Source: a virus. Taken from it: a stretch of 35,611 bases of DNA. This document shows, piece after piece, positions 13,971-35,611 of the stretch (its first letter is position 1; every line of letters begins with the position of its first letter). A program made the position numbers and the translations under genes. The notes under the pieces were generated by a model, which was not told the origin of the DNA, ran no database searches, and saw nothing but the letters and a program-made list of their open reading frames with translations. The stretch lies in IMG/VR virus record IMGVR_UViG_3300045135_000739, positions 1 to 35,611 of that record; one strand, given 5' to 3'.

Positions 13971-14453
13971 TTACACCTTCATTAATTCAAAAATAAAGCG
14001 GGTGTCGGTTACTTGTTCATACGATACGACCATGTATTTAACGCATTCAAATTCGACCGGCTCTTTGAATAACGCCGCTTTTTTTAATATTTTAACCTCG
14101 TTTAAACGTTCGACTTCGATCTTATTGGTTCGAGTCTTTTCTAACGTTCGGTATTCAACCTGTACGCCTAATTCGCGGGCTCGTTTGATACCTTCACTCA
14201 TACCGAGCGATATACCAAGATCAACATATACGACGCTTTTATTAGCCACAATTAACCATTCTAACCCCGCATTGATCCCTAACTTCCTTTCGTCCGGGTC
14301 GCCGTCGTTTAAAATACCTTCTTGCGTATACAATAAATGACTTGCGATCGGTGACTCGCCACGTTTTAAACAATCACGAACACACGCCCGCGCGTAACGT
14401 ACATTTGTTTCAACATTACCCGCGAACGGTGACTCTATTAATACTCTATTCAT
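13971..14453 (-). CDS. DUF7768-like protein (deoxyribosyltransferase-like fold)
   Basis: 160 residues. The first ~105 match a domain common in phages: VLIESPFAGNVETNVRYAR (4-22), RGESPIASHLLYTQ.G.L (31-48), ERKLGINAGLEWL and VYVDLGISLGMSEGI.RA (76-93). The fold is related to nucleoside 2-deoxyribosyltransferase / SLOG-like proteins and probably binds a nucleotide; the reaction is unknown. The extra ~50 residues at the C terminus (from TLEKTRTNKIEVE) are not part of the usual domain. It is the last gene of the leftward early operon, overlaps the XRE-like gene by 4 bp and is followed by the terminator. Confidence 0.72.
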   Translation of the reverse strand: MNRVLIESPFAGNVETNVRYARACVRDCLKRGESPIASHLLYTQEGILNDGDPDERKLGINAGLEWLIVANKSVVYVDLGISLGMSEGIKRARELGVQVEYRTLEKTRTNKIEVERLNEVKILKKAALFKEPVEFECVKYMVVSYEQVTDTRFIFELMKV

Positions 14454-14689
14454 AATTTCAATTCCCGTTCTTTTCGTAATGTTAGAATTATGTCGACCAT
14501 GTCTTGACCTAAAAACTCACATAACCCGGTTAAGTCGCTATATTTAACGTCACGGTGACCATTTAACCATTGGCTGAAACTCGCGTCACTTGTACCGTAT
14601 CGCGACACAATAACGTGGTGTTTCATACCTGACACGTCAACCGCGCGGCGTAATATCTCATGCGCGGGGATAATTGGCTTTTTACTCAT
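14450..14689 (-). CDS. Small XRE/Cro-like helix-turn-helix protein
   Basis: 79 residues. The segment HHVIVSRYGTSDASFSQWLN (about 24-43), followed by GHRDVKYSDLTGLCEFLGQD, has the five-helix Cro/CI-type pattern: helix-turn-helix with SDASFSQWLNG as recognition helix, then a helix ending at FLG. It probably represses or modulates a promoter of this phage. It sits in the last third of the early leftward operon with 4-bp overlaps on both sides, downstream of the operator-controlled promoter at 15.2 kb. No dimerisation extension is seen. Confidence 0.68.
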   Translation of the reverse strand: MSKKPIIPAHEILRRAVDVSGMKHHVIVSRYGTSDASFSQWLNGHRDVKYSDLTGLCEFLGQDMVDIILTLRKERELKL

Positions 14690-14874
14690 GGTTTGGCTTT
14701 CCTATCGTGACGGCTATATGCGAACCCGTCACGTTTGATTAACTTCAGATCTTCGCTTCGATCTGTGCTGTTAGACTCCGGTTTCGGTTTACCTAGCTTT
14801 TGCATGATCTCGTCGATCACGTCCTCGCCGTTGTATAACCTAGTTGCTAAGTCGTTCAATTTGATAATCGACAT
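14686..14874 (-). CDS. Small unknown early protein
   Basis: 62 residues, starting MSIIKLNDLATRLYNGEDVI and ending in a basic stretch (FAYSRHDRKAKP). No recognised family. Coupled by overlap to the genes on both sides: 35 bp with the 106-residue gene and 4 bp with the XRE-like gene. A basic tail on a short helical protein would suit nucleic acid or protein contact, but nothing more can be said. Confidence 0.6.
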   Translation of the reverse strand: MSIIKLNDLATRLYNGEDVIDEIMQKLGKPKPESNSTDRSEDLKLIKRDGFAYSRHDRKAKP

Positions 14875-15160
14875 AATTGTACGCCTTAAATATTGCGGTT
14901 AATAACTTACGTTGCCATTGTGATCGTTTATTCAATTGGTGACGTGGTACTAACGCGAACGTTTGGTCGCTCATACCGAGATCTAATTCAACACGCCCTA
15001 CGCGATAACCCGTAACCTTTAAATAACGCCCGTGACATTTAATTCGCTTCGGTTCGAGATCAACTATCGCGTCCATGATCACGGGTGTTTTTACATAGTC
15101 ACCCACAATAAAAGGTTTATTTGACGCGTATCGACGTTGTTCGTTTGTTAACTTAATCAT
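14840..15160 (-). CDS. Unknown early protein, first gene behind the 15.2-kb promoter
   Basis: 106 residues. N-terminal MIKLTNEQRRYASNKPF, then a beta-rich segment (VGDYVKTPVIMDAIVDLEPK, RYLKVTGYRVGRVELDLG) and a basic helical end (RSQWQRKLLTAIFKAYN). No family recognised. A good ribosome site (GAGGAAAG) precedes 15160. It opens the group 15160-13971 and is directly controlled by a promoter overlapping a TTGAC-N6-GTCAA operator. Confidence 0.65.
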   Translation of the reverse strand: MIKLTNEQRRYASNKPFIVGDYVKTPVIMDAIVDLEPKRIKCHGRYLKVTGYRVGRVELDLGMSDQTFALVPRHQLNKRSQWQRKLLTAIFKAYNYVDYQIERLSN

Positions 15161-15193: not shown

Positions 15194-15222
15194 AAGATAA
15201 ATCTTATTGACGGTGTCGTCAA
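15194..15222 (-). promoter_or_regulatory. Early promoter with one TTGAC-N6-GTCAA operator
   Basis: Minus strand: -35 TTGACG (15222-15217), 17-bp spacer, -10 TATCTT (15199-15194). The perfect palindrome TTGAC-GACACC-GTCAA (15222-15207) covers the -35. A second, degenerate half site (GTCAA) lies 14 bp further on. It drives 15160-13971. The shared sequence TTTAT.TT at the -10 matches the other two operator promoters. Confidence 0.72.
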
Positions 15223-15227
15223 CTATT

Positions 15228-17342
15228 TTAAATAGCTCTTTGTTGTTGGAACGGTAACAGTTTTTCGGGCATATCATAAACCCGGCGACCGTTTGATCGA
15301 CGCGCTTTTTTACCGAATACCTTTTGAACTATTGGTCCGAACTTACGCGACATACTATGTGACGGATCGACGCCTATTTCCTGTAATATCTCCGCGACGG
15401 TTAACATACGGGTACGTGGTGCGTTCAAGTCGTAGTTGATACGTAACAGATCTTCGTCGGTTGTAACGTGTTGGAAATCACTGTTTATATCTTCTAACAT
15501 AACGAGCTCGTCGCGAGTTAACCACGTTGTTACGTCCTTCTCCATGGTTAACATTTGCGCCCATATTTGTTGAGCGTCTAAACCGTGATCGGCGATCATG
15601 TTTTGACCAACTTCAATCGTCCAAAATCGACGGTTACCCGTATCGTCGTGCAAATATTCACGTGGGTTAACTGAAGCAAAAAACACCGTTTTACGCGGGA
15701 ATTTACTTTCGGCGCGCGCATAAGGTAAACGGAATTCGTCAACGTCTTTCGTGATAAATGCTTTCAACGCTGCTATGTCTGAACGTCTAAACGTTGCGTC
15801 TAACTCGCCCAATTCAACTAACCAATGACTAACACACTGTTTTACACTGTCGCGATCGGACGGGTTCAATATTGCGCCTTCTTTACTAAACCCGCCTGAT
15901 AGATTTTTTAACCAACGGGTTTTACCTAAATTTTGATCACCTTGTAATACAAGTACACCTGACGCGCTTATACCGTCCGGTCGAATTAATGCGCGTACTG
16001 CTGTCGCTAACCATTTTACGACTAACATTTTAGTCGTTTGGAACGAGTCGCCCGTGTCTAATGTGGTTACTAACGCGTCGATACGATCGACACCGTCCCA
16101 TGGTTTAGACTTGATCCAATTTAACGCCGGGTGGTACGCGTTTTGATCTGCCACAACCCCCGCGTAACGTTCGATCTCACTAACAGGAAATTCGACTTGG
16201 TTCGCCAAACTTGTTAATACGGCAAGCGCATTATTTTTAGCGTTATCTGTTGTAAATTCTGCGCCGGGGATCGTGATCTCTACTTCCTTCGACATAATAT
16301 TGTATTTACAACTAATACCCGCTTTATTAACTAAGTGTTTGAAGTTAACCAATGTACCTAATGGTTTACCGTTCGTTTTTGTTTCGGTAAATCCCACATG
16401 GAAATATGACCAACCCGCGCCAATATCGGCACCGTGACCCATGTCGCCCGTTAATTCGACTTGTTGACTAAAACACGACTGACACGAAGCAATACTGTTA
16501 CCGATCGTCGCTTGTACGTAGTCCGGGCGTGTGTCCCATTTGTCACGCATTAAACCCGACATTCTATATAAACGATCCATACGTGCCGGGTTCGCACCTG
16601 TCCAAAAAGCCAACGTATTAACAAGTGATTGATCCGCGCTTGACCTGTCAAAATCTCCACCGCTTGACGACGGGAACGCCTTCGCTAACTTTTCAACGTT
16701 GCAATCCCATAGATCACTAAATGACGCTTTATCACCAAACACCGCACCCGCTTGGTTATTGCTTTTACGCATTTTTTCGATCAAGTCGTCATCGCTACCT
16801 TTAAAGGTGTAACCGGGTAATGTCGGTTCGTCCTTCAGTGTGTCAAGTTTAACGACTTGCGCCGTATTACCGGGTTCGAAGTAGGTATTTATTAAACCCG
16901 GTAATAAGTCCGTACAATCGTGATCCATTGATCCATTCGCGTGTGTCCCTGTTAATATAATAAACCGCCCCGTATGGTAAAGCTCAATACCTAACGACAC
17001 GTTTTTACATTTATGATCGTCAATGTGGGTGTATTTACCTATAACGTGTAAACCCTTACCGCTTTGACTGACTTCCACATATGCACCCGGAAACATACCG
17101 GTTAATGTGGTCGCTAAGTCTGACCATTTTACGCCGTCATACGCTTTGTCAATATCTAAACAAAAATACGGATCGTTGTCTGTTAAAACTAAGCCGATCC
17201 CGTAGTCAACCCCGGCGGTATCTGCTGCGAATTTAATTGTATTATAATCTGACCATGTTAGCGGATCGGTACTACTTCCCGCGCTCATGGTTCTATAGTC
17301 GATCGGTAATTTCGTCGACTTTTTAACTAAAGTGTAAAACAT
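15228..17342 (-). CDS. Primase-helicase: AEP/Prim-Pol domain plus VirE/D5-type helicase
   Basis: 704 residues. The N terminus has the archaeo-eukaryotic primase pattern of Prim-Pol proteins: CLDIDKAYD (61-69, metal-binding Asp pair) and VSQSGKGLHVIGK (91-103, the S.SG.G.H motif). The C-terminal half is a VapE/VirE-like SF3/AAA+ helicase: VLQGDQNLGKTRW with Walker A at 468-475, WLVELGELDA (507-516, Walker B), RRSDIAALKAFIT, then FFASVNPREYLHDDTGNRRFW (554-574, sensor and Arg finger). It should prime and unwind phage DNA for the PolB polymerase encoded at 25.2 kb. It starts 28 bp after the end of the TetR-like gene and is followed by a separate promoter. Confidence 0.9.
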   Translation of the reverse strand: MFYTLVKKSTKLPIDYRTMSAGSSTDPLTWSDYNTIKFAADTAGVDYGIGLVLTDNDPYFCLDIDKAYDGVKWSDLATTLTGMFPGAYVEVSQSGKGLHVIGKYTHIDDHKCKNVSLGIELYHTGRFIILTGTHANGSMDHDCTDLLPGLINTYFEPGNTAQVVKLDTLKDEPTLPGYTFKGSDDDLIEKMRKSNNQAGAVFGDKASFSDLWDCNVEKLAKAFPSSSGGDFDRSSADQSLVNTLAFWTGANPARMDRLYRMSGLMRDKWDTRPDYVQATIGNSIASCQSCFSQQVELTGDMGHGADIGAGWSYFHVGFTETKTNGKPLGTLVNFKHLVNKAGISCKYNIMSKEVEITIPGAEFTTDNAKNNALAVLTSLANQVEFPVSEIERYAGVVADQNAYHPALNWIKSKPWDGVDRIDALVTTLDTGDSFQTTKMLVVKWLATAVRALIRPDGISASGVLVLQGDQNLGKTRWLKNLSGGFSKEGAILNPSDRDSVKQCVSHWLVELGELDATFRRSDIAALKAFITKDVDEFRLPYARAESKFPRKTVFFASVNPREYLHDDTGNRRFWTIEVGQNMIADHGLDAQQIWAQMLTMEKDVTTWLTRDELVMLEDINSDFQHVTTDEDLLRINYDLNAPRTRMLTVAEILQEIGVDPSHSMSRKFGPIVQKVFGKKARRSNGRRVYDMPEKLLPFQQQRAI

Positions 17343-17369: not shown

Positions 17370-17672
17370 TTATTTTAAAATTGCTTCTTTGGCTCTTGTC
17401 TGTAGTTCGATCGGTGCTTTCATTGCGTTATCGTCGGCGAGTACCACACCGATCCCGACGATCTTTAATAGCTCGTTATTAATAGCGTATCGCATAACCG
17501 CCCGTTTAAGTTGCTTCATAGTACCCAAGTGGTGACTAACTAAACCTTCGGTGACACCGGCTTCGCGGGCGACCTTTTCGCGGGTGATCGTTTGATACCC
17601 GTCGCGTTCGGCGACCTTAACCGCCGCCGCTAATATTTCACCTTTCCGGGTGTCTTTGTCTTTTCTTGCCAT
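17370..17672 (-). CDS. TetR-like transcription regulator (DNA-binding domain only)
   Basis: 100 residues from the ATG at 17672 (MARKDKDTRKGEIL). A TTG at 17708 would extend it by 12 residues but lies inside the operator. Residues 9-55 match the TetR N-terminal fold: RKGEILAAAVKVAERDGYQT, then ITREKVAREAGVTEGLVSHH (helix-turn-helix). The remaining ~45 residues are too short for the normal ligand-binding domain, so dimerisation must use a reduced helical end. It lies directly behind a promoter with two palindromes TTGAC-N6-GTCAA, the arrangement of a self-repressing TetR gene. The same site occurs at two other early promoters. TetR regulators are rare in phages, where CI/Cro types dominate. Confidence 0.82.
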   Translation of the reverse strand: MARKDKDTRKGEILAAAVKVAERDGYQTITREKVAREAGVTEGLVSHHLGTMKQLKRAVMRYAINNELLKIVGIGVVLADDNAMKAPIELQTRAKEAILK

Positions 17673-17676
17673 TTTC

Positions 17677-18213
17677 TTAAATCTCTTTGTTTTTGACTCT
17701 GTCGTCAATATAAACCACTCTTGACGGCGCGGTCAAGCCTAATTTTGTAAATACAATCGCGACGACGGGGAATTTCGGACCCTGTTTTTTACCGTCCGGT
17801 GTGGTGAATGGTTTCCCGTTCGGTCGTATGAAATTGATACGATACGGGAAGCGTAAAAACGTATCGCAATGATCCCACGCTTTGCGTATATAACCGACTT
17901 CGGGTTTATCGGGTATTAACATTACTGTCGTGTTACCCTTTTCGGCTTCGCTGATCGCTTTGTCTACCCATGGCATAATGTCGCTATATGGCGGGTTACA
18001 CCAATTTAAACTTAACCACGGTATTTTTAACGAGTCGATACCCTGTTCAATTAATGAATAATAAATCGGCGCTTTTGCGGTTGCTGCAATACAACACACG
18101 TCGAGATCGAACGGTCGCCCGGTGATATTATCTTCGATCCATTTAACTAATTCAGGCGGTGTTTGTGCGAGATCTTTTTCGTCGTCCGGTGTTGTGCTGT
18201 TGTTCATATCCAT
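17677..18213 (-). CDS. Phage DNA N-6-adenine methyltransferase (Dam-like)
   Basis: 178 residues. The layout of the phage Dam family (DNA N-6-adenine-methyltransferase) is clear: AQTPPELVKWIE (16-27), FDLDVCCIAATAKAP (35-49), LNWCNPPYSDIMPWVDKA with catalytic-type NPPY at 73-76, TVMLIPDKPEV, and INFIRPNGKP near residue 128. The enzyme would methylate adenine in phage DNA; the target site cannot be read from the sequence. It has the ribosome site AAAGGTAAATTAATAATG, which overlaps the end of the next gene upstream. Its last 20 codons contain the operators of the TetR-like gene. Confidence 0.88.
   Translation of the reverse strand: MDMNNSTTPDDEKDLAQTPPELVKWIEDNITGRPFDLDVCCIAATAKAPIYYSLIEQGIDSLKIPWLSLNWCNPPYSDIMPWVDKAISEAEKGNTTVMLIPDKPEVGYIRKAWDHCDTFLRFPYRINFIRPNGKPFTTPDGKKQGPKFPVVAIVFTKLGLTAPSRVVYIDDRVKNKEI
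17693..17736 (-). promoter_or_regulatory. TetR-gene promoter with two operators
   Basis: Minus strand: -35 TTGACC (17736-17731), 17-18 bp spacer, -10 TTATAT/TATATT (~17713-17707). Operator 1, TTGAC-CGCGCC-GTCAA (17736-17721), covers the -35. Operator 2, TTGAC-GACAGA-GTCAA (17708-17693), begins right after the -10. Starts are 28 bp apart, exactly as at 21.8 kb. The promoter lies within the 3' end of the adenine methyltransferase gene. Confidence 0.78.
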
Positions 18214-18215
18214 TA

Positions 18216-18575
18216 TTAATTTACCTTTTTAAAAAATGCGCCGTAAACCCGGCGGTTTGCTATTGTTAATTGACGATCTAAATGAGTAACACCAACGAAG
18301 GAACGATCACAATTGATCGCTGCCACGCCAACCGTACCCGCACCCATGGAAGGATCGAACACCACGTCGCCGGGTTTACTGTTGTCACGTATTAAGTTTT
18401 CAATGTAACAATATTTCGCGTAAATGGTTTTCGCTGCATTCTTCGGTACAATGTGAATATTACCCGACGGGCATAACGTGATCATGTTTAACGCTTGATC
18501 GTCCGTTGGTTTAAAACGAGTAACAATCATGTCGACGGTTTTGTCGTATTCTTTGTTCAATAATAATTCAATCAT
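18216..18575 (-). CDS. Truncated methyltransferase-like protein (SAM-binding half only)
   Basis: 119 residues. The second half reads GDVVFDPSMGAGTVGVAA (69-86), then RSFVGVTHLDRQL, the pattern F.DP..G.GT...A......(Y/F)(I/V)G.......Y of N4-cytosine / N6-adenine methyltransferases. The (D/N/S)PP(Y/W) catalytic motif is absent, and the protein is far shorter than the ~230-300 residues of complete enzymes. The remnant could bind SAM or DNA without catalysis, or work together with the adjacent Dam-like protein. No frame is open upstream that would supply the missing half, so the short form appears stable. Its start overlaps the 64-residue gene by 8 bp. Confidence 0.72.
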   Translation of the reverse strand: MIELLLNKEYDKTVDMIVTRFKPTDDQALNMITLCPSGNIHIVPKNAAKTIYAKYCYIENLIRDNSKPGDVVFDPSMGAGTVGVAAINCDRSFVGVTHLDRQLTIANRRVYGAFFKKVN

Positions 18576-18762
18576 GTTTTAACACCTTGTTTAATACTGC
18601 GGGTTCGATCACACGTTCGCATTTATCGCCGTTCAACTTGTAATAATAAATAACGTCGACATTACGTTCGCTTGTTACAAAATGCTTCGCGTGTTCACGT
18701 TTTACCGCCGGGATCGTACATTGCGCGTCGAAGTATATAATTAATGATAATAATTCAATCAT
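18568..18762 (-). CDS. Small unknown protein between repeated start sites
   Basis: 64 residues: MIELLSLIIYFDAQ, then a basic stretch and VIYYYKLNGDKCERVIEP. No family recognised. Its first codons (ATGATTGAATTATTAT) are identical for 16 bp to those of the following gene, and similar to those of the preceding gene. The gene is thus bounded by short direct repeats at both junctions (18560-18575 and 18747-18762). That suggests a cassette gained or lost by recombination at start sites. Confidence 0.6.
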   Translation of the reverse strand: MIELLSLIIYFDAQCTIPAVKREHAKHFVTSERNVDVIYYYKLNGDKCERVIEPAVLNKVLKHD

Positions 18763-19232
18763 AAATCACCCGGTGAATTAGCAAATTTAGCGAAACCGCC
18801 CGCCGCAATAACTAAATTAATAAACTTCAGTTGTGCCGCTTCTCGTTTGGTGCCTGTATATTTCCACTCGCTACGTTTAACCTCAACCGCTGCGAATTGT
18901 CCGATTGTTTTACCAACCATGTCGGGAGTAATTAAAACAGGGCGTATACCTATTAAGTCGCTACTTTTAACCTTCTCGTTTAGTGCTTTACTGTCATTCG
19001 CTAAACCGTAACGTACCGGAACCCCGCGATCGTCTTGCAATACACCCACATTATTACGCCACAATAGCCAACCGTTTTGGCTTGTCGCGAGTCGGATCGC
19101 ATTTTGTACCGCTGCTTCACCTGTCGCGGTTATTTGCACCCCTGTGTCGCTCGTACCTATTATTTCGCGTAACTCGTTTAATGCTTCAGTACTGATACCA
19201 TGGCGCACCGCCCATTCTGTAAATTCAATCAT
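18759..19232 (-). CDS. VRR-NUC family nuclease
   Basis: 157 residues. It matches the virus-type replication-repair nuclease domain: GEAAVQNAI (38-46, catalytic Glu39), LLWRNNVGVLQDDRG (56-70), YGLANDSK and SSDLIGIRP (Asp92), FAAVEVKRSEWKYTG (113-127, E-x-K with Glu117 and Lys119), then EAAQLKFINLVIAAGGFA (131-148). These standalone phage nucleases are Holliday-junction or flap enzymes acting in replication and recombination. Coupled by 4-bp overlap to the helicase gene upstream, so the pair may work together. Confidence 0.9.
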   Translation of the reverse strand: MIEFTEWAVRHGISTEALNELREIIGTSDTGVQITATGEAAVQNAIRLATSQNGWLLWRNNVGVLQDDRGVPVRYGLANDSKALNEKVKSSDLIGIRPVLITPDMVGKTIGQFAAVEVKRSEWKYTGTKREAAQLKFINLVIAAGGFAKFANSPGDL

Positions 19233-20824
19233 AAACCTAATACCTTATTCGTTAACTTCGTGGCGTCGTTTCTTCCGAGCGTTTGCGCGGTCATAATATC
19301 GACACCATATTTTAAATAGAATTTTTTATAAATTTCGCGATCCGACAATCCGTTCGCGCGCTCTACACCCGCCCACATTGCTATCGACTCGCGTAATAAT
19401 TTTTGCGATTCTTGTCTGATAATGTGGTTTTTACGTGCGGCGAGTTGTGCCGGTTTCGGTAACCCGTTCGGCGCGTAGAATTCACCGTCGACTTTCTCAA
19501 TTTGCCCGCGCATTTGTGCCAATACGGACGCGTCTAATTCGATTAAATCACCGTCGACAAATTCGGGTCCGCTACGTTGCGCTGGTGTTGGTATGTGTCC
19601 ACAATACGGGCATTCGACGCGGAAACGTTCATACACTCGCGTACATTCGTCGCAAGCCTTTAACGCTTCGCCTTCGTCGCGGTTTGTGCTTCGTTTCTCT
19701 CGTCTATCTAATGACCACACGCGCGGCGCGTCGGGTAATCCGTGTTTAATCACATTACCGACATGATCGATAATTATAGCGACGGTTTTACCTTCTAAAA
19801 TACGCAATACACGCCCGAATTGCTGAACATATAACCCGTATGACATTGTCGGACGTGCGAAGCTGACGACCTCAATAGCGGGGAGATCGAAACCTTCACC
19901 GAATAGGTCAACGTTGACGAGTTGTAATAATTGACCGTTGCGTAATTTTTTAACTAATGCTGTACGATCTCGATCTGGCGTACCACCATGAACAACCGCC
20001 GCCGGTACGCCCGCCGCATTGAAATTGTTCGCGATCTCCGTGGCGGTTTCTATATCCGGGGCGAAGGTAACGCCGCGTTTACCCGGTGCTATTTTTAGAT
20101 AATGACGAACAACGTCACCAATGACGTGCGAATTTTTGATCGCTTTGGATAATTGCGGCGGTTTATAGTCGCCATTACTTCCGAGCTCAACTTGATCCAA
20201 ATTTAGATCACTGGTTCGCGGCGCAAAAATACGATAATCCGTTAAAAACCCGTTATCGATTAAATAACGCATATTCGGACCTTCAACCATGTTATCGAAC
20301 ACGCCGTCGCTTTCTCGACTTAATCCGAACCCGTCCGCGCGTTCCGGTGTGGCGGTTACACCTAAACCGACTGCGCCCGGAAACATGGCGACCGCTTTAC
20401 CCCATTTATTCGCGGTTAATACGTGGTGTGTTTCGTCCATAACCCACAATTTGACATTGTTCGCCCATGGAAGATCGCGGCGTATGATCGTGTCAACGCC
20501 CGCAACTTTATTTACACCGTTCGGGTCAAAATAGCTTTTTCCGAATTCTTCGACGTGGTTTTCAACGCAATTTTTGATCACGTTGCGCGGTGCTATAATT
20601 TCGTGCTTCAGTCCTTCACGTGCTAATGCTTGACTAATTTGTCCAACTAACTCTTGACGGTGCGCGATAGCGACGCTTATACCCGGTGTGTAGTGCATAA
20701 CGTTGGATAATACGACGGTTTTACCCGCACCGGTAGGCATGACGGCGCATACATTACGGTCGCCGTTTTGCCAAGCTGTGCGAATACTGTCGACGAGTTG
20801 TGTTTGATATGGTCTTAATTGCAT
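19229..20824 (-). CDS. SF2 DEAD/DEAH-type helicase with zinc-finger insert
   Basis: 531 residues. Helicase motifs in order: Q-like LRPYQTQLV (3-11), Walker A MPTGAGKT (29-36), DETHH at 130-134 (DEAH-type box), GVTATPER (motif III), VVHGGTPDRDR, and QQFGRVLRI (motif VI). After the core comes CDECTRVYERFRVECPYCG, a four-cysteine zinc ribbon. The C-terminal part is helical and ends LTNKVLGL. It resembles UvsW/RecG-like type-III-restriction-fold helicases used by phages for replication or recombination. It overlaps the VRR-NUC gene by 4 bp and the upstream unknown gene by 10 bp. Confidence 0.9.
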   Translation of the reverse strand: MQLRPYQTQLVDSIRTAWQNGDRNVCAVMPTGAGKTVVLSNVMHYTPGISVAIAHRQELVGQISQALAREGLKHEIIAPRNVIKNCVENHVEEFGKSYFDPNGVNKVAGVDTIIRRDLPWANNVKLWVMDETHHVLTANKWGKAVAMFPGAVGLGVTATPERADGFGLSRESDGVFDNMVEGPNMRYLIDNGFLTDYRIFAPRTSDLNLDQVELGSNGDYKPPQLSKAIKNSHVIGDVVRHYLKIAPGKRGVTFAPDIETATEIANNFNAAGVPAAVVHGGTPDRDRTALVKKLRNGQLLQLVNVDLFGEGFDLPAIEVVSFARPTMSYGLYVQQFGRVLRILEGKTVAIIIDHVGNVIKHGLPDAPRVWSLDRREKRSTNRDEGEALKACDECTRVYERFRVECPYCGHIPTPAQRSGPEFVDGDLIELDASVLAQMRGQIEKVDGEFYAPNGLPKPAQLAARKNHIIRQESQKLLRESIAMWAGVERANGLSDREIYKKFYLKYGVDIMTAQTLGRNDATKLTNKVLGL

Positions 20825-21261
20825 ACACTAAAACCCCCGGCTTTTTCAAATAATGTCAACGCCTTTTTTTCGTCGAACTCGATCGGTGTGGCACTTGCTA
20901 ACCAACCCACGTTGATAAAATGGTTACCGTTAAACTCGTCTAATAACGCACGGTGTACGTCGGCGCATAGATCTGCAATCTCACTTTGGAAATAATATTC
21001 GGTACATTGTATTTCGTGCGACTTTATGTAACGACGGTTGTTATTATCAACACCTAGCGCGGCGACTAATATCGTCCATTTATGACGGTGTTCGGCGAAT
21101 GCTGCGATCTCGTTTTGTGTCGCCGGGTAACATATATTTAAACGCGGATCGGCTATTTGACATTTACCACCACCGACGAAAATAACATAACGACCACCGA
21201 TCAAACTTTTAGCGATCGCGTTTTGTCTTTTCATTGGGTTATTTTTTTTACGTTTTGGCAT
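20815..21261 (-). CDS. Unknown early protein
   Basis: 148 residues. A very basic N terminus (MPKRKKNNPMKRQNA) is followed by SLIGGRYVIFVGGGKCQIAD and a mixed segment with HRHKWTILVAAL. No recognised family; soluble. It lies between the sliding-clamp-like gene and the helicase, overlapping both slightly, so a replication accessory role is plausible but unproven. Confidence 0.6.
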   Translation of the reverse strand: MPKRKKNNPMKRQNAIAKSLIGGRYVIFVGGGKCQIADPRLNICYPATQNEIAAFAEHRHKWTILVAALGVDNNNRRYIKSHEIQCTEYYFQSEIADLCADVHRALLDEFNGNHFINVGWLASATPIEFDEKKALTLFEKAGGFSVCN

Positions 21262-21785
21262 TATTTTTTATTCTCCATTCTACACGGCATAACGATCGCG
21301 AACCCGTCGATCAATGGTGAAGTGAATTTAATAGCGTTACTGGCACCATGAAACGACATTAACATACCTTTTTCTTTACCCAACACACTCTTAAACGCTT
21401 TACCAATAAGCGACATATAACCCGGATCAACGCCGTAATCGATTACGTGTTCAACTTTTAAACCCTTCATTATAACGCGCCAATTAGGAAAACGACCGTC
21501 GATATTGCGCGCCTTGATCATATCGTTGATCATCGTGTGGGTTTTCGGTCCCGTAATACGCGCGCTGTTTACTTCACCGAATACTTTTAAATCGTCAATA
21601 TCAATAATTACGCTTTGACCCGGTTCGAAGTTGTGATCTGCTTCTATAACCACACTTGCTAATACGTGACCATTCGACGCGGTCAAACGTAGTTTGTCGA
21701 CTGTTTCATGTTCAAAACATACACCTTGTAAGTAATAGCGAATTTCATTTTTACCCGCTGCGAATGGTTTAACAAATTTCAACAT
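21261..21785 (-). CDS. Two-domain sliding-clamp-like protein (DnaN domains II-III)
   Basis: 174 residues from the ATG at 21785, which has GGAG nine bases upstream; longer starts at 21812/21818 run into the operators. It resembles the second half of the bacterial beta clamp: IRYYLQGVCFE (15-25; E. coli DnaN has RYYLNGMLFE), ASNGHVLA (36-43; compare ATDGHRLA), DGRFPNWRVIM (96-106; compare DGRFPDYRRVL), and a C terminus with GFAIVMPCRM (161-170; compare VVMPMRL). A normal clamp has three such domains and ~366 residues; this one has room for about two. Likely role: processivity ring for the phage polymerase. First gene of the leftward early operon. Confidence 0.75.
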   Translation of the reverse strand: MLKFVKPFAAGKNEIRYYLQGVCFEHETVDKLRLTASNGHVLASVVIEADHNFEPGQSVIIDIDDLKVFGEVNSARITGPKTHTMINDMIKARNIDGRFPNWRVIMKGLKVEHVIDYGVDPGYMSLIGKAFKSVLGKEKGMLMSFHGASNAIKFTSPLIDGFAIVMPCRMENKK

Positions 21786-21802
21786 TTTTTTATTCTCCGT
21801 TA

Positions 21803-21846
21803 TTGACAACATCGTCAAAAGTAATTTATATTGACGGGGAAGTCAA
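21803..21846. promoter_or_regulatory. Divergent early promoter region with two operators
   Basis: Plus strand: -35 TTGACA (21803-21808), 18-bp spacer, -10 TATATT (21827-21832). Minus strand: -35 TTGACT (21846-21841), 17-bp spacer, -10 TACTTT (21823-21818). Palindromes TTGAC-AACATC-GTCAA (21803-21818) and TTGAC-GGGGAA-GTCAA (21831-21846) start 28 bp apart and cover the elements of both promoters. Apart from the N6 spacers the plus-strand module closely matches the TetR-gene promoter (reverse of 17693-17736). One regulator could silence both early operons. Confidence 0.8.
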
Positions 21847-21872
21847 CAAAAAGAAGGTAAAATTTAATATGA
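21840..21872 (+). repeat. 33-bp direct repeat, left copy, carrying a start site
   Basis: Identical to 22420-22452, 580 bp away. It holds the operator half site GTCAA, the ribosome site AAGAAGG and the ATG of the inserted gene. Confidence 0.95.
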
Positions 21873-22447
21873 GATTAAGCAAAACAAACAAGTATTTAAT
21901 CTTAGAAAAAATTTACATAGATAAATTTAAAAAGGATTATGACGAATTAGTAAACGATTTAAAAAAATGGTTAGTTAATGAGTTTGAAAAGCAAAACAAA
22001 GATTTAATTGACATATTTGATAAATTATCCAGTGTCGATCAAGGTGCGTATGTTTCTTATATTAAATACAGCGCCCGTTTTAGCTTGTGTCGAAGTCTCG
22101 ACGAAGTGGATAAATTATCTTTTGGTATTGTTTTACATAATTCTAAAATTGATGGGTATATCGAGTGTAAAAAATACGCAAGTTCTTATTATTTGTCTTT
22201 CAAAGACGATAAAGAATTAAAAAACCGCATAAAAGAATTTAACAAAGATAAACAAGTTTTCGTCGAAAAATTAACCCAAATAAATAATGTTCTTCAATCT
22301 TGCGCAACTGTTGAAAGATTAATAAAACTGGTTCCTGAATTCGAAGAATACACCCCTAAACAAATTACTAATGTAGGTTTGATACCTATTGATCAAATTA
22401 AAGAAGTTAGCTTTATCCTAAGTCAACAAAAAGAAGGTAAAATTTAA
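21869..22447 (+). CDS. AT-rich inserted gene of unknown function (weak Nmad5 resemblance)
   Basis: 192 residues from ATG 21869, with AAGAAGG eleven bases upstream. Frames starting at 21803 run through the promoter and are not real starts. The protein is Lys-rich and mixed-charge: MRLSKTNKYLILEKIYIDKF, helical NDLKKWLVNEFEKQNKDL, late segment ATVERLIKLVPEFEEYTP. The opening MRL(S/T)K..... and the P(E)....(F/Y).P near the end recall Nmad5 (nucleotide-modification-associated) proteins of phages, but only weakly. Base use is very different from its neighbours: AT-rich, few CG-rich codons. It is flanked by 33-bp exact repeats. A recent insertion between promoter and operon is the simplest reading, making it the first product of the rightward operon. 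Confidence 0.8.
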   Translation: MRLSKTNKYLILEKIYIDKFKKDYDELVNDLKKWLVNEFEKQNKDLIDIFDKLSSVDQGAYVSYIKYSARFSLCRSLDEVDKLSFGIVLHNSKIDGYIECKKYASSYYLSFKDDKELKNRIKEFNKDKQVFVEKLTQINNVLQSCATVERLIKLVPEFEEYTPKQITNVGLIPIDQIKEVSFILSQQKEGKI

Positions 22448-22452
22448 TATGA
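22420..22452 (+). repeat. 33-bp direct repeat, right copy, carrying a start site
   Basis: Encodes the last residues (QQKEGKI, stop) of the inserted gene and at the same time provides the ribosome site and ATG of the next gene (22449). Confidence 0.95.
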
Positions 22453-23141
22453 CTATTTCAATATCGATACCGTCAACCGACGAACATAAATCACTCGCCG
22501 CCGCCATTGGTCGCGTTCTTATTGAATACGCCGAAGGCGAACAACCTGTCGATTTAACAAGTAAAGAAACGGCACCTAACCCGGTTGTTACGACCACGCC
22601 GCCGCAAGGTACATTTACGCCGGTTACTGAAACTAAAGTCGAGCAATTAACCGAAGAAGAACTTGCCGAAGATAAAGTTATCGAACAAATAGCGAATGAC
22701 GCGTCGAACGTATTCGGTAAAGTTGAACTTGACGCGAACGGCTGCCCTTGGGACGAGCGTATAAATACGTCAAATAAAGGTCAAACCGCTAAAGGCGTGT
22801 GGAAACGTAAACCGGGACTTGATTCAAATTTTTATAATGAAATTGTCGCAAGTATTAAACAACCGGTCGACGATACACCACCGCCACCGGCGCAAGCGGA
22901 AAACGACACACCGCCGCCACCGCCGCCACAAGTTGAAACGAGCGACGAAGGTACGTTACCATTTAGTGAATTATTTAAACTTGCCACAACTGCTATCAAT
23001 GGTGGTGTGGTAACCATGGATCAATTGAACGAATACGCGAAAGAATTCGAGTGTGATCAATTTATTATGGTGGGTTCGCTAACTGAAGATAAACGGGATC
23101 AAGTATGTTACAAGATAGCAAAGCGCGCGAACTTGGTTTAA
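22449..23141 (+). CDS. Early protein with WD.RI motif and proline-rich linker
   Basis: 230 residues, no named family. N-terminal helix (EHKSLAAAIGRVLIEYAEGE), then a Pro/Thr linker, then VELDANGCPWDERINTSNKG (about 91-110) followed by GVWKRKPGLD. This short motif (LDA.G.PWD.RI.......G.WK.K.G) recurs in many phage proteins near replication genes. A poly-proline stretch (TPPPPAQAENDTPPPPPPQ, ~140-158) precedes a C-terminal helical domain (ITM-like VVTMDQLNEYAKEFECDQF). Its position just before the DUF2800 and DUF2815 genes suggests a replication accessory. Its start lies in the right copy of the 33-bp repeat; its end overlaps the next gene by 37 bp. Confidence 0.72.
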   Translation: MTISISIPSTDEHKSLAAAIGRVLIEYAEGEQPVDLTSKETAPNPVVTTTPPQGTFTPVTETKVEQLTEEELAEDKVIEQIANDASNVFGKVELDANGCPWDERINTSNKGQTAKGVWKRKPGLDSNFYNEIVASIKQPVDDTPPPPAQAENDTPPPPPPQVETSDEGTLPFSELFKLATTAINGGVVTMDQLNEYAKEFECDQFIMVGSLTEDKRDQVCYKIAKRANLV

Positions 23142-24280
23142 ATAAACACTCACCGACCGCGCCAAGTGCGGCGCATAGGTGGGTTAATTGTCCGGGTTCT
23201 GTGAATTACGTTAAACAATTACCCGAACCACCAACGAGTGACGATTCGATCGCGGGTACTGCTTCGCATTGGGTCGCGGCGCAATTGTTAACGGTTCCTT
23301 CGAATTGGTCGGATTATGTCGGCGAAGTTTGTCCCGATACCGACACCGTAATTGACGAAGAACAAGCCGAATGCGCGGATTTTTACGCGTCATATGTGCT
23401 ACAACTCGCGGACGAAACAAACACGACCGACGCGATAAAAAGCGAAGTCTTTGTCTGGGCGAACGAAACGATCGGTTATAGTCTTTACGGTACGTGTGAT
23501 ACGTTTTTATTTGATAACGACAATAATACGCTTCACGTACTCGATTATAAATTCGGTCACCGAACCGTCGACGCGAAAGATAATTACCAATTGATAGCGT
23601 ACACGGTTGCGATCATAGAATCACATTTACGATTTAATGATCCTAGGTTACAAGTTAAGTTTCATATCGTACAACCTCGCGCGTTCCGGGCGGGCGGTCC
23701 AATTCGAACACACGAATATACAGTCGCGGAATTACAACCACACTTTGACCGTTTAAAACAAGCGTGGGACGAAGCACAATTACCCGAAGCGCGTTGTATA
23801 CCGGGTTTATGGTGTCGCGACTGCGTGGGTTTAGTTGATTGTAACGCGTCGCGTCGTTATGTGTATGACGGTGCGGATTATATCGATCGCGCTGAAGTTG
23901 TCGACATAACACCCGAAGTCGTGGCGAACGAATTACGTCTATTAAGTAGAATATCCGAAGCGGTTAAACATAAAATTACCGCATTGGAAGCAAGCGCGAC
24001 GGCGTTACTTAAAAAAGGCGTTGACGTTCCGGGTTACGAGTTACAAAAAAAGATCGGTCGTTTAGATTGGTCAATTAAACCCGAAGAAGTGATCGCAATT
24101 GGTGATCTAATGGGTGTTGACTTGCGTCACCCGGTCGCTAAAACAATAACACCAACGCAAGCAAAAAAAGTTATTGACGAAGCCGTCATTAACGGTTACG
24201 CTCATAAACCAGATCGCGGCGTTTCGCTTTCTGAAGTGTCAACTAAAACAAGTAGTATAATTTTTAATAAGGTAAAATAA
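23105..24280 (+). CDS. DUF2800 protein, Cas4/AddB-like PD-(D/E)XK nuclease
   Basis: 391 residues. HSPTAPSAAHRWVNCPGSV (15-33) and GTASHWVAAQLL (51-62) are the signature opening. GTCDTFLFD.....LHVLDYKFG (129-151) contains the nuclease core (Asp132, Asp147, Lys149), and NYQLIAYTVA is the Q..Y motif. Cys29 plus Cys231, 237, 240 and 246 (CIPGLWCRDCVGLVDC) have the spacing of an iron-sulphur cluster as in Cas4/AddB nucleases. DUF2800 genes are normally paired with DUF2815 and a DNA polymerase, as here. It likely acts as an exonuclease in recombination or replication. The ATG at 23105 overlaps the upstream gene; a strong ribosome site is not obvious. Confidence 0.88.
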   Translation: MLQDSKARELGLNKHSPTAPSAAHRWVNCPGSVNYVKQLPEPPTSDDSIAGTASHWVAAQLLTVPSNWSDYVGEVCPDTDTVIDEEQAECADFYASYVLQLADETNTTDAIKSEVFVWANETIGYSLYGTCDTFLFDNDNNTLHVLDYKFGHRTVDAKDNYQLIAYTVAIIESHLRFNDPRLQVKFHIVQPRAFRAGGPIRTHEYTVAELQPHFDRLKQAWDEAQLPEARCIPGLWCRDCVGLVDCNASRRYVYDGADYIDRAEVVDITPEVVANELRLLSRISEAVKHKITALEASATALLKKGVDVPGYELQKKIGRLDWSIKPEEVIAIGDLMGVDLRHPVAKTITPTQAKKVIDEAVINGYAHKPDRGVSLSEVSTKTSSIIFNKVK

Positions 24281-24283
24281 ATT

Positions 24284-25150
24284 ATGGCTGATAGAATCGA
24301 CGTTTTATTCCCTGTTGCTCGTGTCGTTACGGGTAACCTATATACACCAAACACCACCGACGCGGAAGGTAACCCGCTTGTAATCAAAACGGGACCTAAC
24401 GCGGGTCAACCTCGCGAAGATTATTATTTCGGTATTGCGATCCCTAAAGGAACCGAGCAACACTGGAACCAAACCGAATGGGGATCGAAAATTTACCAAG
24501 CCGGTGCGAACGCTTTCCCTAACGATGCGAGTCAATCGCCCACGTTCGCATGGAAGATCGCGGACGGTGACAGTACCGTACCTAATCGTGTTGGTACTAA
24601 ACCATGCGATCGCGTTGGTTGGGCGGGTAATTGGGTCGTGCATTTGTCTAGCTCGTTTGCTCCGAAACTTTACACCGATAACGGTAACAAGCAATTGTTA
24701 GAAAAAGACGCGATCAAGTGTGGTTATTTCGTGGAAGTATTCGGATCGGTAGGTGGTAACGGTTCAAGTCAACAACCGGGCGTATTTATCAATCACTCCA
24801 TGGTTAACCTAGTAGCGTACGGTGAAGTTATTAATACGGGTCCTGACGCTACTAAAGTCGGTTTCGGTGCTTCTGGTGGTGCATTACCACCGGGCGCAAG
24901 TGCGACACCACCGGCGCAAGCGGGCGGGTTTAATCCGGGCGCAACTCCACCACCACCACCGGCGCAAGCGGGCGCAACTCCACCGCCACCACCGGCGCAA
25001 CCACATACTGAAATATTGAACCCGGCGAATGCTGCGGCGCAACAAACACCGCCACCACCGCCACCACCGGCGCAACCTGATCCGCTTGACGCGTATCGTA
25101 AAGCCGGTTGGACTGACGACCAACTACGTGCGGCGGGTATGTTACAATAA
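24284..25150 (+). CDS. DUF2815 ssDNA-binding-like protein with proline-rich tail
   Basis: 288 residues. The first ~200 match DUF2815: GNLYTPNTTD, YYFGIAIPKGTEQHW, FAWKIADGD, KPCDRVGWAGNWVVHLSSSF, IKCGYFVEVFGSVGGNGSSQ, GVFINHSMVNLVAYG. DUF2815 proteins are taken to be phage single-strand DNA-binding proteins. A low-complexity tail follows (three blocks of PPPPPAQ(A/P), ~218-265) and a conserved-looking end DPLDAYRKAGWTDDQLRAAG. An exposed linker plus a short terminal peptide is how SSB proteins recruit partners. The ribosome site AAGGTAAAAT precedes the ATG; an intrinsic terminator follows 10 bp after the stop. Confidence 0.87.
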   Translation: MADRIDVLFPVARVVTGNLYTPNTTDAEGNPLVIKTGPNAGQPREDYYFGIAIPKGTEQHWNQTEWGSKIYQAGANAFPNDASQSPTFAWKIADGDSTVPNRVGTKPCDRVGWAGNWVVHLSSSFAPKLYTDNGNKQLLEKDAIKCGYFVEVFGSVGGNGSSQQPGVFINHSMVNLVAYGEVINTGPDATKVGFGASGGALPPGASATPPAQAGGFNPGATPPPPPAQAGATPPPPPAQPHTEILNPANAAAQQTPPPPPPPAQPDPLDAYRKAGWTDDQLRAAGMLQ

Positions 25151-25159
25151 TAATAATAC

Positions 25160-25181
25160 GGGGCGCTACGCCCCTTTTTTT
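25160..25181 (+). terminator. Intrinsic terminator after the DUF2815 gene
   Basis: Plus strand: GGGGCG, loop CTA, CGCCCC, then seven T. It lies between the ssDNA-binding protein and the polymerase gene, so the polymerase is probably expressed at a lower level by read-through. Confidence 0.88.
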
Positions 25182-25193
25182 AAGGTGTCAATT

Positions 25194-27149
25194 ATGTTTT
25201 ACGTTTACGATATTGAAACATATCCGAATTGTTTTACTTTTACGGGTATGTTCTTCGGTGATCCGTCGTCGCTTCGGATCTATGAAATAAGCGACCGAAT
25301 TAATAACTATGAAGAATTGATCCATTATTTGCACTGGTTACTCTCAACCGGGGCGCGTATGGTTGGTTTTAATAACGTCGGGTTCGACTACCCGGTTATC
25401 CACGATATGATCAACGGTAAACGCCGCACCGCCGCAGACGTGTACGCGTTGGTTGACTATATAATAAACAGTGAAGATCGTTTCTCCCATATTGTTTGGG
25501 ATCGTGATCGATTTATCCCGCAAGTCGATTTATTTAAAATTCACCATTTCGATAATAAAGCACGTTCCACTTCGTTAAAAATGCTCGAATTCAACATGAG
25601 ATCGGACGATATACAAGAATTGCCTTATACGCCGGGTTCATATTTACAACCACATGAAATCGATAAATTACGTTCGTATAATGTGTTTGATGTGGTTAAA
25701 ACTGCGGACTTTTTAAAAGAATCGTTAAATTTAATCGAGTTTCGCGACGAATTAAGTAATAAATACGGTCGTGATTTTACCAATTATAACGACACGAAGA
25801 TCGGGAAAGAATATTTTAAAATGCGACTTGAAGAAGCGTTACCCGGTTGTACTAAACACCAAACGCCGCGCGACTTCATTCGATTAAATGACGTTATATT
25901 CGATTACGTTAAATTTGAACACCCGGAATTTCAACGGATATTACAATATTTTCGTGATCAAGTTATTGTCGAAACTAAAGGCGTATTCGACGATCTCCAC
26001 GCTACGATCGACGGGTTTACATATCATTTCGGCGTCGGTGGTATTCACGGTTCGATTGAATCCGCAACTGTTGAAGCCGACGACCGTTATTGTATCGTTG
26101 ACATTGACGTAACGAGTTATTACCCGTCGTTAGCGATAGAGAACAACCTTTACCCGGCACATTTAGGACCGACATTTGTCGACATTTATCGCGACATTAA
26201 AGAACAACGTGTCGGGTACGCTAAAGGCACCCCCGAAAATGCAATGCTAAAACTTGCCTTGAATGGTGTATATGGTGCGAGTAACGACATATATAGCCCG
26301 TTTTATGATCCATTGTTTACCATGGCGATCACGATCAACGGTCAATTATTATTGTGTATGTTCGCGGAATGGGTAACGAGTAAAGTCGAAGGGTTAACCA
26401 TGATACAAGCGAACACGGACGGTATAACGGTTAAACTGCCAAAATTTAACCGCGGAACGTTGACGTATTATATAAAAGAATGGGAAAAACTAACCGGGTT
26501 ACAACTTGAACAAGTGTTATATAGTCGTATGTTTATACGCGACGTAAATAATTATTTAGCGGAAACCACCGACGGCAAGTTAAAAAATAAAGGCGCGTAC
26601 GAATACGACATAAATTGGGCTAAAAATTTTAGTCAATTAGTTGTACCAAAATGCGCCGAGTCTGCACTCGTTAACGGTGAAGATATAAACGCGTATATCA
26701 CCGATCCAAGTCGTGATAAATTCGACTTTATGTTACGTACTAAAGTACCTAGATCGTCGCGACTCGTTGCGGTTGACTCGCAAGGTAACGAAACCGAACA
26801 ACAACGTATTACCCGTTTTTACGTAGCTAATGAAGGCGTCGAGTTGTTTAAAATAATGCCCCCCACACCGGCGCAAATTAAAAAATGGCGAACTTCTCCG
26901 CAACTGTGGCATATGTTAACCAATGATCGAGTATGTACGACTAACCAAAAAGAAATAGATCGGTTAAAACGCAAAGGTTACATTGATACACCCGAGAATA
27001 TGCGCGTTGAAGCCCCGGAACGTCGTATCGCCATTTGTAAAGGTCATAAAGTGAAAGTGTGTAACAACATGAATGATTACGACCCGACAATATTAAATTA
27101 TCATTATTATATTACCGAAACTCGTAAATTAGTGGATCCGTTAAGATGA
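25194..27149 (+). CDS. Family B DNA polymerase with 3'-5' exonuclease
   Basis: 651 residues from the ATG at 25194 (AAGGTG six bases upstream); the frame is open further 5' but that part overlaps the DUF2815 gene. Exonuclease motifs: YDIET (Exo I, Asp6/Glu8), FNNVGFDYP (Exo II, Asp65), YNVFD (Exo III, ~162-166). Polymerase motifs: DIDVTSYYPSL (motif A, 303-313), KLALNGVYGASN (motif B, 353-364), QANTDGITV (motif C, 405-413). In motif C the usual DTD is NTD: the second Asp, the metal ligand, is kept and the first is Asn. It is compact for a family B enzyme. Replicates the phage genome together with the clamp-like, primase-helicase and ssDNA-binding proteins. Confidence 0.92.
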   Translation: MFYVYDIETYPNCFTFTGMFFGDPSSLRIYEISDRINNYEELIHYLHWLLSTGARMVGFNNVGFDYPVIHDMINGKRRTAADVYALVDYIINSEDRFSHIVWDRDRFIPQVDLFKIHHFDNKARSTSLKMLEFNMRSDDIQELPYTPGSYLQPHEIDKLRSYNVFDVVKTADFLKESLNLIEFRDELSNKYGRDFTNYNDTKIGKEYFKMRLEEALPGCTKHQTPRDFIRLNDVIFDYVKFEHPEFQRILQYFRDQVIVETKGVFDDLHATIDGFTYHFGVGGIHGSIESATVEADDRYCIVDIDVTSYYPSLAIENNLYPAHLGPTFVDIYRDIKEQRVGYAKGTPENAMLKLALNGVYGASNDIYSPFYDPLFTMAITINGQLLLCMFAEWVTSKVEGLTMIQANTDGITVKLPKFNRGTLTYYIKEWEKLTGLQLEQVLYSRMFIRDVNNYLAETTDGKLKNKGAYEYDINWAKNFSQLVVPKCAESALVNGEDINAYITDPSRDKFDFMLRTKVPRSSRLVAVDSQGNETEQQRITRFYVANEGVELFKIMPPTPAQIKKWRTSPQLWHMLTNDRVCTTNQKEIDRLKRKGYIDTPENMRVEAPERRIAICKGHKVKVCNNMNDYDPTILNYHYYITETRKLVDPLR

Positions 27150-27448
27150 TAGAAAAACTCGAAAAACTAGCAAAAATTGAAGGTTTAACCACAAGAACAA
27201 AAAAGGCGAGCCCTTCACCGTTCGCCGATCCTGTTTTATTCATTGTGAATAAATACGGTGCGTTAGACCGTTATAAACCCGACGCGTTAGCGTTAGCGTT
27301 AAAATATGGTATTGAAATTAAACCAGACGAATACGGTGTGGTCGTTAGCGCCGGGTTAGGTTTAGCGACGTATATCGTTGATAATGACCGCGAACAAGTT
27401 TACGAAGCGATTGTTAGCGCTATTATCGAAAAAAAACCCGCCAATTAA
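27146..27448 (+). CDS. Small unknown early protein after the polymerase
   Basis: 100 residues, no named family. A basic N-terminal helix (IEKLEKLAKIEGLTTRTKK) is followed by two helical blocks (DPVLFIVNKYG, KPDALALALKYGIEIKP) and a hydrophobic stretch VVVSAGLGLATYIV that is short for a membrane helix. It overlaps the polymerase by 4 bp and is the last gene of the rightward operon. Its stop codon lies in the loop of the terminator that serves the opposing late operon. Confidence 0.65.
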   Translation: MIEKLEKLAKIEGLTTRTKKASPSPFADPVLFIVNKYGALDRYKPDALALALKYGIEIKPDEYGVVVSAGLGLATYIVDNDREQVYEAIVSAIIEKKPAN

Positions 27449-35130: not shown

Positions 35131-35611
35131 TACGCGCCACCTTCTAACGCTGCGAGTCTGCGCTCTAGTTGTTCAATTTTAGCCACTAAATAAGGCACGA
35201 TCTTGGATTGATCGACCCCTGCCGGTGATACAATCTTCGCCGGTTGCACTTCTTTTTCGACGATTACGGTTTCCATCATAGGCGAACCGTCCGCGTTATA
35301 ACGTGGTTGACCTTTTTTGTCGCCCGTTTTATATAATACTGGTTGTTCGACTTCTTCAGTCTCGATGACCGCTTCTTCGTATACATCACCGATGTTTAGA
35401 TTTCTAGGTCCTTCACCCTCTGAGCCAAAGTCTAAGCCCTTATCAATAACATCGTGAGCAAGGAAACCCCAAACTGCGTCACCATCTGGATTGTTTTTCC
35501 AGTTAAACAGTGTAAATGTGTCGTATATGTCATTGAATTTTGCGTCAATGTCTGCGTCTGTCGGTTTGCCGATAACAGATTTTAAACGGTTGTCCGATGT
35601 TGTGTTGTAAG
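35130..35611 (-). CDS. Tail fibre, C-terminal part with S74-type chaperone domain (5' part lies at 1-1440)
   Basis: Read on the minus strand from the right edge, this frame continues the fibre. It contains WGFLAHDV, then DFGSEGEGPRN, then VDQSKIVPYLVAKIEQLEA, and ends LAALEGGA. WGF(I/L)A..V followed by (V/D)..SK(L/I)VP.L...I..LE is the classic C-terminal half of the Peptidase S74 intramolecular chaperone domain. That domain trimerises fibre and spike proteins and is often auto-cleaved. The stop codon overlaps the start of the tail-assembly chaperone as TAATG at 35128-35132, implying translational coupling. Positions 35304-35611 repeat positions 1-308, so this is the same gene as the left-edge fibre and not a second one, unless the genome carries two copies. 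Confidence 0.85.
   Translation of the reverse strand, partial: YNTTSDNRLKSVIGKPTDADIDAKFNDIYDTFTLFNWKNNPDGDAVWGFLAHDVIDKGLDFGSEGEGPRNLNIGDVYEEAVIETEEVEQPVLYKTGDKKGQPRYNADGSPMMETVIVEKEVQPAKIVSPAGVDQSKIVPYLVAKIEQLERRLAALEGGA
35304..35611. repeat. Terminal overlap, right copy
   Basis: Right-hand copy of positions 1-308. All nine differences fall in the third codon position of the fibre gene. Eight are synonymous and one exchanges Glu for Asp (left 175). Confidence 0.97.

Follow-up and report, generated by a model that had tools for sequence, protein, structure and literature searches.

The early region of this viral genome encodes a 100-residue TetR-like protein close to a set of repeated palindromes, which raises the question of whether protein and palindromes form one control system and what that system would do during infection. 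A sequence-only reading of the window (the whole stretch of viral DNA that was analysed, 35,611 nt) had pointed to five perfect TTGAC-N6-GTCAA palindromes, and all five were recovered at 15207-15222, 17693-17708, 17721-17736, 21803-21818 and 21831-21846. Only about 0.05–0.1 would be expected: simulated windows contained a mean of 0.05 perfect sites with a maximum of 1, and the 61 TTGAC and 65 GTCAA words of the window predict 0.11. Any other half-site in the same 5-N6-5 arrangement occurred at most twice. With up to one mismatch allowed, the count was nine compared to a mean of 1.19 and a maximum of 4 in shuffled sequences; this check for background sites in coding regions favours the earlier reading. 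The one-mismatch sites lie at 230, 35533, 20630 (inside coding sequence) and 24174, the first two being one site that is present twice via the duplicated contig ends. These ends (1-300 and 35304-35603) are 97% identical over 300 bp; the record, which IMG/VR classes as linear, probably represents a nearly complete genome in which the overlap of the ends joins two variants.

The palindromes had been said to overlap promoter elements, and an independent promoter scan indeed placed sigma-70-like promoters at these positions. At 17.7 kb the putative operator O1 of tetR (TTGACGGCGCGGTCAA, 17721..17736) contains on its reverse strand the TTGACC that serves as -35 of the tetR-primase promoter (TTGACC-18-TATATT, 17707..17736, minus strand, 10/12 match). 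Putative operator O2 (TTGACTCTGTCGTCAA, 17693..17708) is located between the -10 and the tetR start, with 20 bp between it and the ATG; the pair sits within the last codons of an upstream Dam-like gene (17677-18213). The second pair is found between two divergent operons, where two overlapping promoters point apart. Here, putative operator TTGACAACATCGTCAA (21803..21818) provides the -35 of a rightward early promoter (TTGACA-18-TATATT, 21803..21832, plus strand), which with an 11/12 match ranks in the scan's top two of 43. Its partner TTGACGGGGAAGTCAA (21831..21846), likewise a putative operator, lies 3′ of the rightward -10 and also provides the -35 of a weaker candidate leftward early promoter (TTGACT-17-TACTTT with a weak -10, 21818..21846, minus strand). 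In both pairs the first site carries the -35 and the second is placed at or just past the -10. The 28 bp distance between starts and the common 44-bp module reported earlier were reproduced: 33 of the 44 bp are identical after reverse-complementing one pair. The single putative operator TTGACGGTGTCGTCAA (15207..15222) forms the -35 of a leftward promoter (TTGACG-17-TATCTT, 15194..15222, minus strand) with a 9/12 match, a score that is frequent by chance in the scan. A candidate sixth operator with one mismatch (TTGACGAAGCCGTCAT, 24174..24189) is situated 95 bp 5′ of the SSB gene and is coding here (end of the DUF2800 gene); in Jedunavirus phages a perfect site stands before SSB, in two genomes tens of bases upstream.

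The genes behind these promoters are mostly replication genes. Downstream of tetR (17370..17672, minus strand) follows a VapE-like primase/helicase (15228..17342, minus strand). The leftward early operon (17677..21785, minus strand) encodes a clamp-like protein, an unknown 148-aa protein, a helicase, a nuclease, a small ORF, a methylase-like and the Dam-like protein; the rightward early operon (21869..27448, plus strand) comprises an Nmad5-like insert, an unknown gene, the DUF2800 exonuclease, SSB, DNA polymerase and a 100-aa ORF. Coordinate control of the early operons had been proposed, and sites do lie on the promoters of tetR and of these operons, with the correction that the 21.8-kb pair serves divergent operons. 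The operon behind site 15207 (13971..15160, minus strand) encodes proteins of 106 and 62 aa, an XRE-like protein of 79 aa (14450-14689) and a DUF7768 protein. Since no relative of this XRE gene was found among operator-bearing phages, it is best seen as a passenger, one of the controlled genes of the regulon. Some further features of these genes were noted. A perfect 33-bp direct repeat (AAGTCAACAAAAAGAAGGTAAAATTTAATATGA, 21840-21872 and 22420-22452) that contains half of operator 21831, a ribosome binding site and a start codon flanks the Nmad5-like gene (21869-22447); this AT-rich gene appears to have been inserted recently at the front of the rightward early operon. The clamp-like gene (21261-21785) receives conflicting labels, a DNA polymerase III beta domain from Pfam and a RusA-like resolvase from PHROG. 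Three adjoining genes at 1442-2739 encode similar proteins of 134-161 aa and are apparently tandem duplicates; two of them share 72% DNA identity over 163 bp.

The regulator itself carries a TetR_N helix-turn-helix with the recognition helix region GVTEGLVSHHL and belongs to PHROG 8723. The Pfam TetR_N match reaches 32.9 bits (curated cut-off 24, E 5.6e-8), and the phrog_8723 profile covers the whole protein (residues 2-97, E 1.8e-28). The AF2 model (pLDDT 92.4) displays the TetR helix-turn-helix followed by four further helices. In the PDB its best Foldseek matches are TetR-family proteins, matched over a portion of their chains; among the top predicted viral structural neighbours are two of 97-98 residues that align nearly full-length. 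Because the chain stops at residue 100 and the C-terminal ligand-binding and dimerisation core is absent, the protein is filed as a minimal TetR_N protein (mini-TetR) and not as a classical TetR; for the same reason it probably responds to its own concentration and not to an inducer. As is typical for the TetR family, the predicted operators at 17693 and 17721 overlap the promoter of the regulator's own gene.

TetR regulators had been called rare in phages, a view that does not hold: mini-TetR homologues are present in 100 annotated phage records and in 75 of 160 sampled loci. Carriers include Jedunavirus phages of Klebsiella and phages of Vibrio, Acinetobacter, Shewanella, Pseudoalteromonas, Pectobacterium and others. 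In most relatives read as a whole, helicase, nuclease, often a methylase, tetR and primase occupy one side of the early region and DUF2800 exonuclease, SSB and polymerase the other; PhiPLPE is an exception to this placement of tetR. Searches of viral contigs with the TetR and primase of the window, and of bacterial genomes with its TetR, yielded no close relatives; relatives were reached via annotated phages, a Jedunavirus protein, a helix subgroup, the helicase and the polymerase. In the Pectobacterium phage PEAT2 the mini-TetR gene (14201-14476) is absent from the record annotation, and an operator lies directly upstream.

We compared the occurrence of site and gene in these phages; sites, promoter geometry, gene co-occurrence and conservation were computed. 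The perfect TTGAC-N6-GTCAA palindrome occurs seven times each in JD001, MEW1 and ZCEC13, five times in LAPP1, nine times in PEAT2, six times in Vibrio phage 138 and three times in AAM22, whereas simulated sequence gave 0 to 0.2; the cultured relatives of this TTGAC class belong mostly to one lineage. Mano, ep3 and FoX1, which share primase, helicase and nuclease and lack tetR, contain no perfect site. In JD001, MEW1, LAPP1, PEAT2, ZCEC13 and Vibrio 138 the motif is the top or near-top palindrome. A site precedes tetR in JD001, MEW1, LAPP1, PEAT2, ZCEC13 and AAM22 and, with one mismatch, in Vibrio 138, and in JD001, ZCEC13 and Vibrio 138 many sites are located tens of bases 5′ of early or accessory genes, tetR included. 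The pair of gene and operator, for which a search in related phages had been suggested, is thus conserved, and autoregulatory placement is found in the window and in most TTGAC-class relatives. At 17 bp from the TTGACN half, 42 of the 119 site-strand contexts show a -10-like hexamer, whereas most other offsets give about 5; this spacing was seen again in a second set of loci. A promoter pattern with a fixed distance to the ATG gave no matches.

For an unbiased set, 160 environmental viral loci were picked solely for their helicase or polymerase homology. The 75 loci with a mini-TetR gene contain 54 perfect sites where 2.2 are expected, with about 2 for each other spacer, and the 85 loci without it contain 9 where 4.6 are expected. 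Among spacers of 0-15 bp, the 6-bp spacer accounts for 48 distinct sites and all others for 0 to 4. The TGAC core is enriched in 30/75 versus 3/85 loci (Fisher 6e-9, kinship ignored), a contrast that is partly one of lineage because the two groups come mostly from different searches: 73 of the 75 mini-TetR loci derive from the helicase search and 78 of the 85 others from the polymerase search. Neither the spacer spectrum nor the excess of sites seen inside the mini-TetR group depends on this lineage contrast. The 28-bp pairing is found beyond the window in four further loci (L013, L015, L016 and L085). When 2.9 million viral contigs were scanned for the 28-bp double site, four matches emerged, three of which encode the mini-TetR family; the weak fourth was left uncounted because ordinary cellular genomes, too, give matches to the PHROG 8723 model. 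This fourth match (L014, 8953-8996, with TTGACCAATTGGTCAA as first copy) has the same 28-bp double site on a non-phage-like contig, ∼0.9 kb from a cellular-type TetR gene, and is possibly a cellular relative of this operator layout. Taken as sequence comparison, these data strongly support that the 100-residue TetR_N protein and TTGAC-N6-GTCAA belong together; of the earlier claim that the protein binds this palindrome, the pairing of gene and site stands on strong comparative ground and binding is a prediction.

The putative operator differs between subfamilies of the regulator. In three loci (L063, L064, L065) whose helix is GESTVSYHF or GQSTVSYHF, the site is replaced by CTGAC-N6-GTCAG (23 sites versus 0.13 expected), which often lies between a poor -35 and the -10. 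Because one subfamily uses this variant, the palindrome appears to be more than a -35 box, which indicates an independent operator rather than a -35 by-product. In the same loci a conserved TGTGACG-like element, perhaps the site of a second factor, is often found ∼20 bp upstream. In the DNA read, the CTGAC class has no site directly before tetR; autoregulation is therefore not universal. The helices SEALLSHHF and VEATVSHHF are paired with TGACG-N4-CGTCA. No enrichment of a TGAC-N6-GTCA site is seen with mini-TetRs whose helices are PPALTYHF or SGQTINHYF, so that the pairing of gene and site is not universal either; TTAGCAA-like repeats in the divergent region of the PPALTYHF class were examined as a replacement operator and could not be established as such. 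In two loci, L013 and L044, the site is present although the usual helix residues are missing. In Pseudoalteromonas phage PY6 (L005, PPAVQHHF class), five GTAGCG-N6-CGCTAC palindromes versus 0.01 expected are located at 7107, 8014, 12382, 19992 and 28188 and may be operators or terminators. The association of helix and operator is clustered on the tree, and a test on independent pairs had too few of them to carry weight; as the association follows the tree, it supports co-evolution of helix and operator and does not prove it.

We propose that the protein is a minimal TetR repressor acting on TTGAC-N6-GTCAA as a polymerase-excluding, autoregulated early shut-off device resembling Cro, a reading to which we assign a probability of roughly three in four. 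The mini-TetR would bind the palindrome (family core TGAC-N6-GTCA) as a dimer. Most operators would be superimposed on early-gene promoters read by host sigma-70, the left half supplying the -35 and the right half falling within the spacer, and paired sites 28 bp apart would flank the -10; because of this superposition, bound repressor should exclude RNA polymerase. Just after entry no repressor would be present and the early operons and tetR would be transcribed; with its build-up, tetR/primase, the divergent replication operons and the accessory early operon would be shut off. We infer binding, dimerisation, polymerase exclusion, timing and repression rather than activation.

The system had been thought to replace a CI/Cro switch. 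In the sense of lysogeny this claim is not supported: no integrase or other lysogeny gene was seen among the window proteins scanned, which comprise all but a few small ORFs, and a Jedunavirus carrying a mini-TetR homologue is reported to be lytic and without lysogeny genes (PMC12518310). Cro-like early shut-off fits better for these two reasons. Divergent genes for CI- and Cro-type repressors are absent as well; the divergent region parts replication operons, and the only XRE gene seen is in a separate operon. That the mini-TetR maintains lysogeny in the manner of CI is consequently unlikely, even though its sites cover tetR and the early operons as those of an immunity repressor would and some relatives in IMG/VR have no assigned lifestyle. 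The 'putative integrase' of PY6 (L005, 1781-4126) is in fact a primase-helicase (VapE-like, PriCT-2, Prim-Pol).

Somewhat less probable still is that the protein binds its sites and activates the early promoters or tunes them both ways. Promoter-overlapping proteins sometimes activate, and in the CTGAC class the operator is placed after a poor -35 and ahead of the -10; however, the TTGAC-class site covers -35 and spacer, where a bound protein would block sigma, and both paired-site promoters look good unaided. We also considered that another factor recognizes the palindromes, either the phage XRE protein or a host regulator of TetR type. RutR would be such a host regulator with a box similar to the phage site; its box resembles TTGACCA-N2-TGGTCAA. 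Although the palindrome bound by RutR spans about 16 bp (PMC10891134), the enrichment tracks the phage gene across many hosts, the subfamily with another helix has another motif, and XRE has no relative in operator-bearing phages, which makes this explanation very improbable. Least credible is a chance symmetry of -35 boxes, with TTGAC on both strands, or a set of replication-origin repeats. In its favour, TTGAC matches the -35 consensus and the promoters at the 21.8-kb pair diverge, but enrichment is confined to the 6-bp spacer, most partner half-sites have no -10 on their own strand and the CTGAC variant is not a -35. Moreover, Jedunavirus sites are scattered genome-wide, phages without tetR have few or none, and the frequency differs between phages that have the gene and those that lack it. 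On this evidence the -35-only, replication-origin, host-regulator and XRE readings were rejected.

Beyond the window, we regard it as fairly probable that the module is conserved across many lytic phages on one replication cassette, as a ligand-independent mini-TetR with a -35-embedded operator in which helix and operator were changed together in subfamilies, giving natural orthogonal repressor-operator pairs. If true, regulator, operator and controlled gene set would be available for widespread phages, Klebsiella phages under study for therapy included, for whose temporal control the papers searched contain no description. It would further suggest that a TetR can function as little more than a DNA-binding part, and the matched small repressor-operator pairs could serve for studying changes in helix specificity and for building genetic switches. 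The pair of mini-TetR and site recurs in many otherwise unrelated phages and has apparently never been described as a control system: no prior description of the operator or of a phage TetR regulon was found in the open papers searched, a set that leaves most subscription journals aside. What appears to be new is a TetR_N repressor cut to little beyond its DNA-binding part that would run the early programme of phages.

Several known systems invite comparison. TetR/AcrR repressors (Tn10 TetR and, by fold, EilR and EbrR) share the TetR_N helix-turn-helix, promoter-overlapping palindromic operators and autoregulation, and Tn10 tet has two operators in a divergent control region, as observed here. 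In contrast to these proteins of ∼200 residues, the mini-TetR has 100 residues, lacks the ligand-binding and dimerisation core, is phage-encoded and has its sites on replication genes. The PHROG 8723 'TetR family transcriptional regulator' proteins (Jedunavirus, Vibrio CP-T1, 138) are homologous with a similar gene order near the primase; they have so far been annotated by name only, and those tested have the same operator as the window. In a 2012 comparison (PMC3391216), which proposed no operator, the tetR-like genes of PhiPLPE, CP-T1 and 138 were regarded as cellular regulators that had been co-opted. RutR of E. coli is likewise a TetR-family protein with a palindromic box of similar length, ∼16 bp (PMC10891134), but is a full-length, uracil-responsive host regulator. 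In its proposed role the mini-TetR resembles lambda Cro, a small autoregulated repressor that damps early operons in the lytic cycle; it differs from Cro in its TetR-type fold, in that no CI partner was found and in the distribution of its sites over several early promoters.
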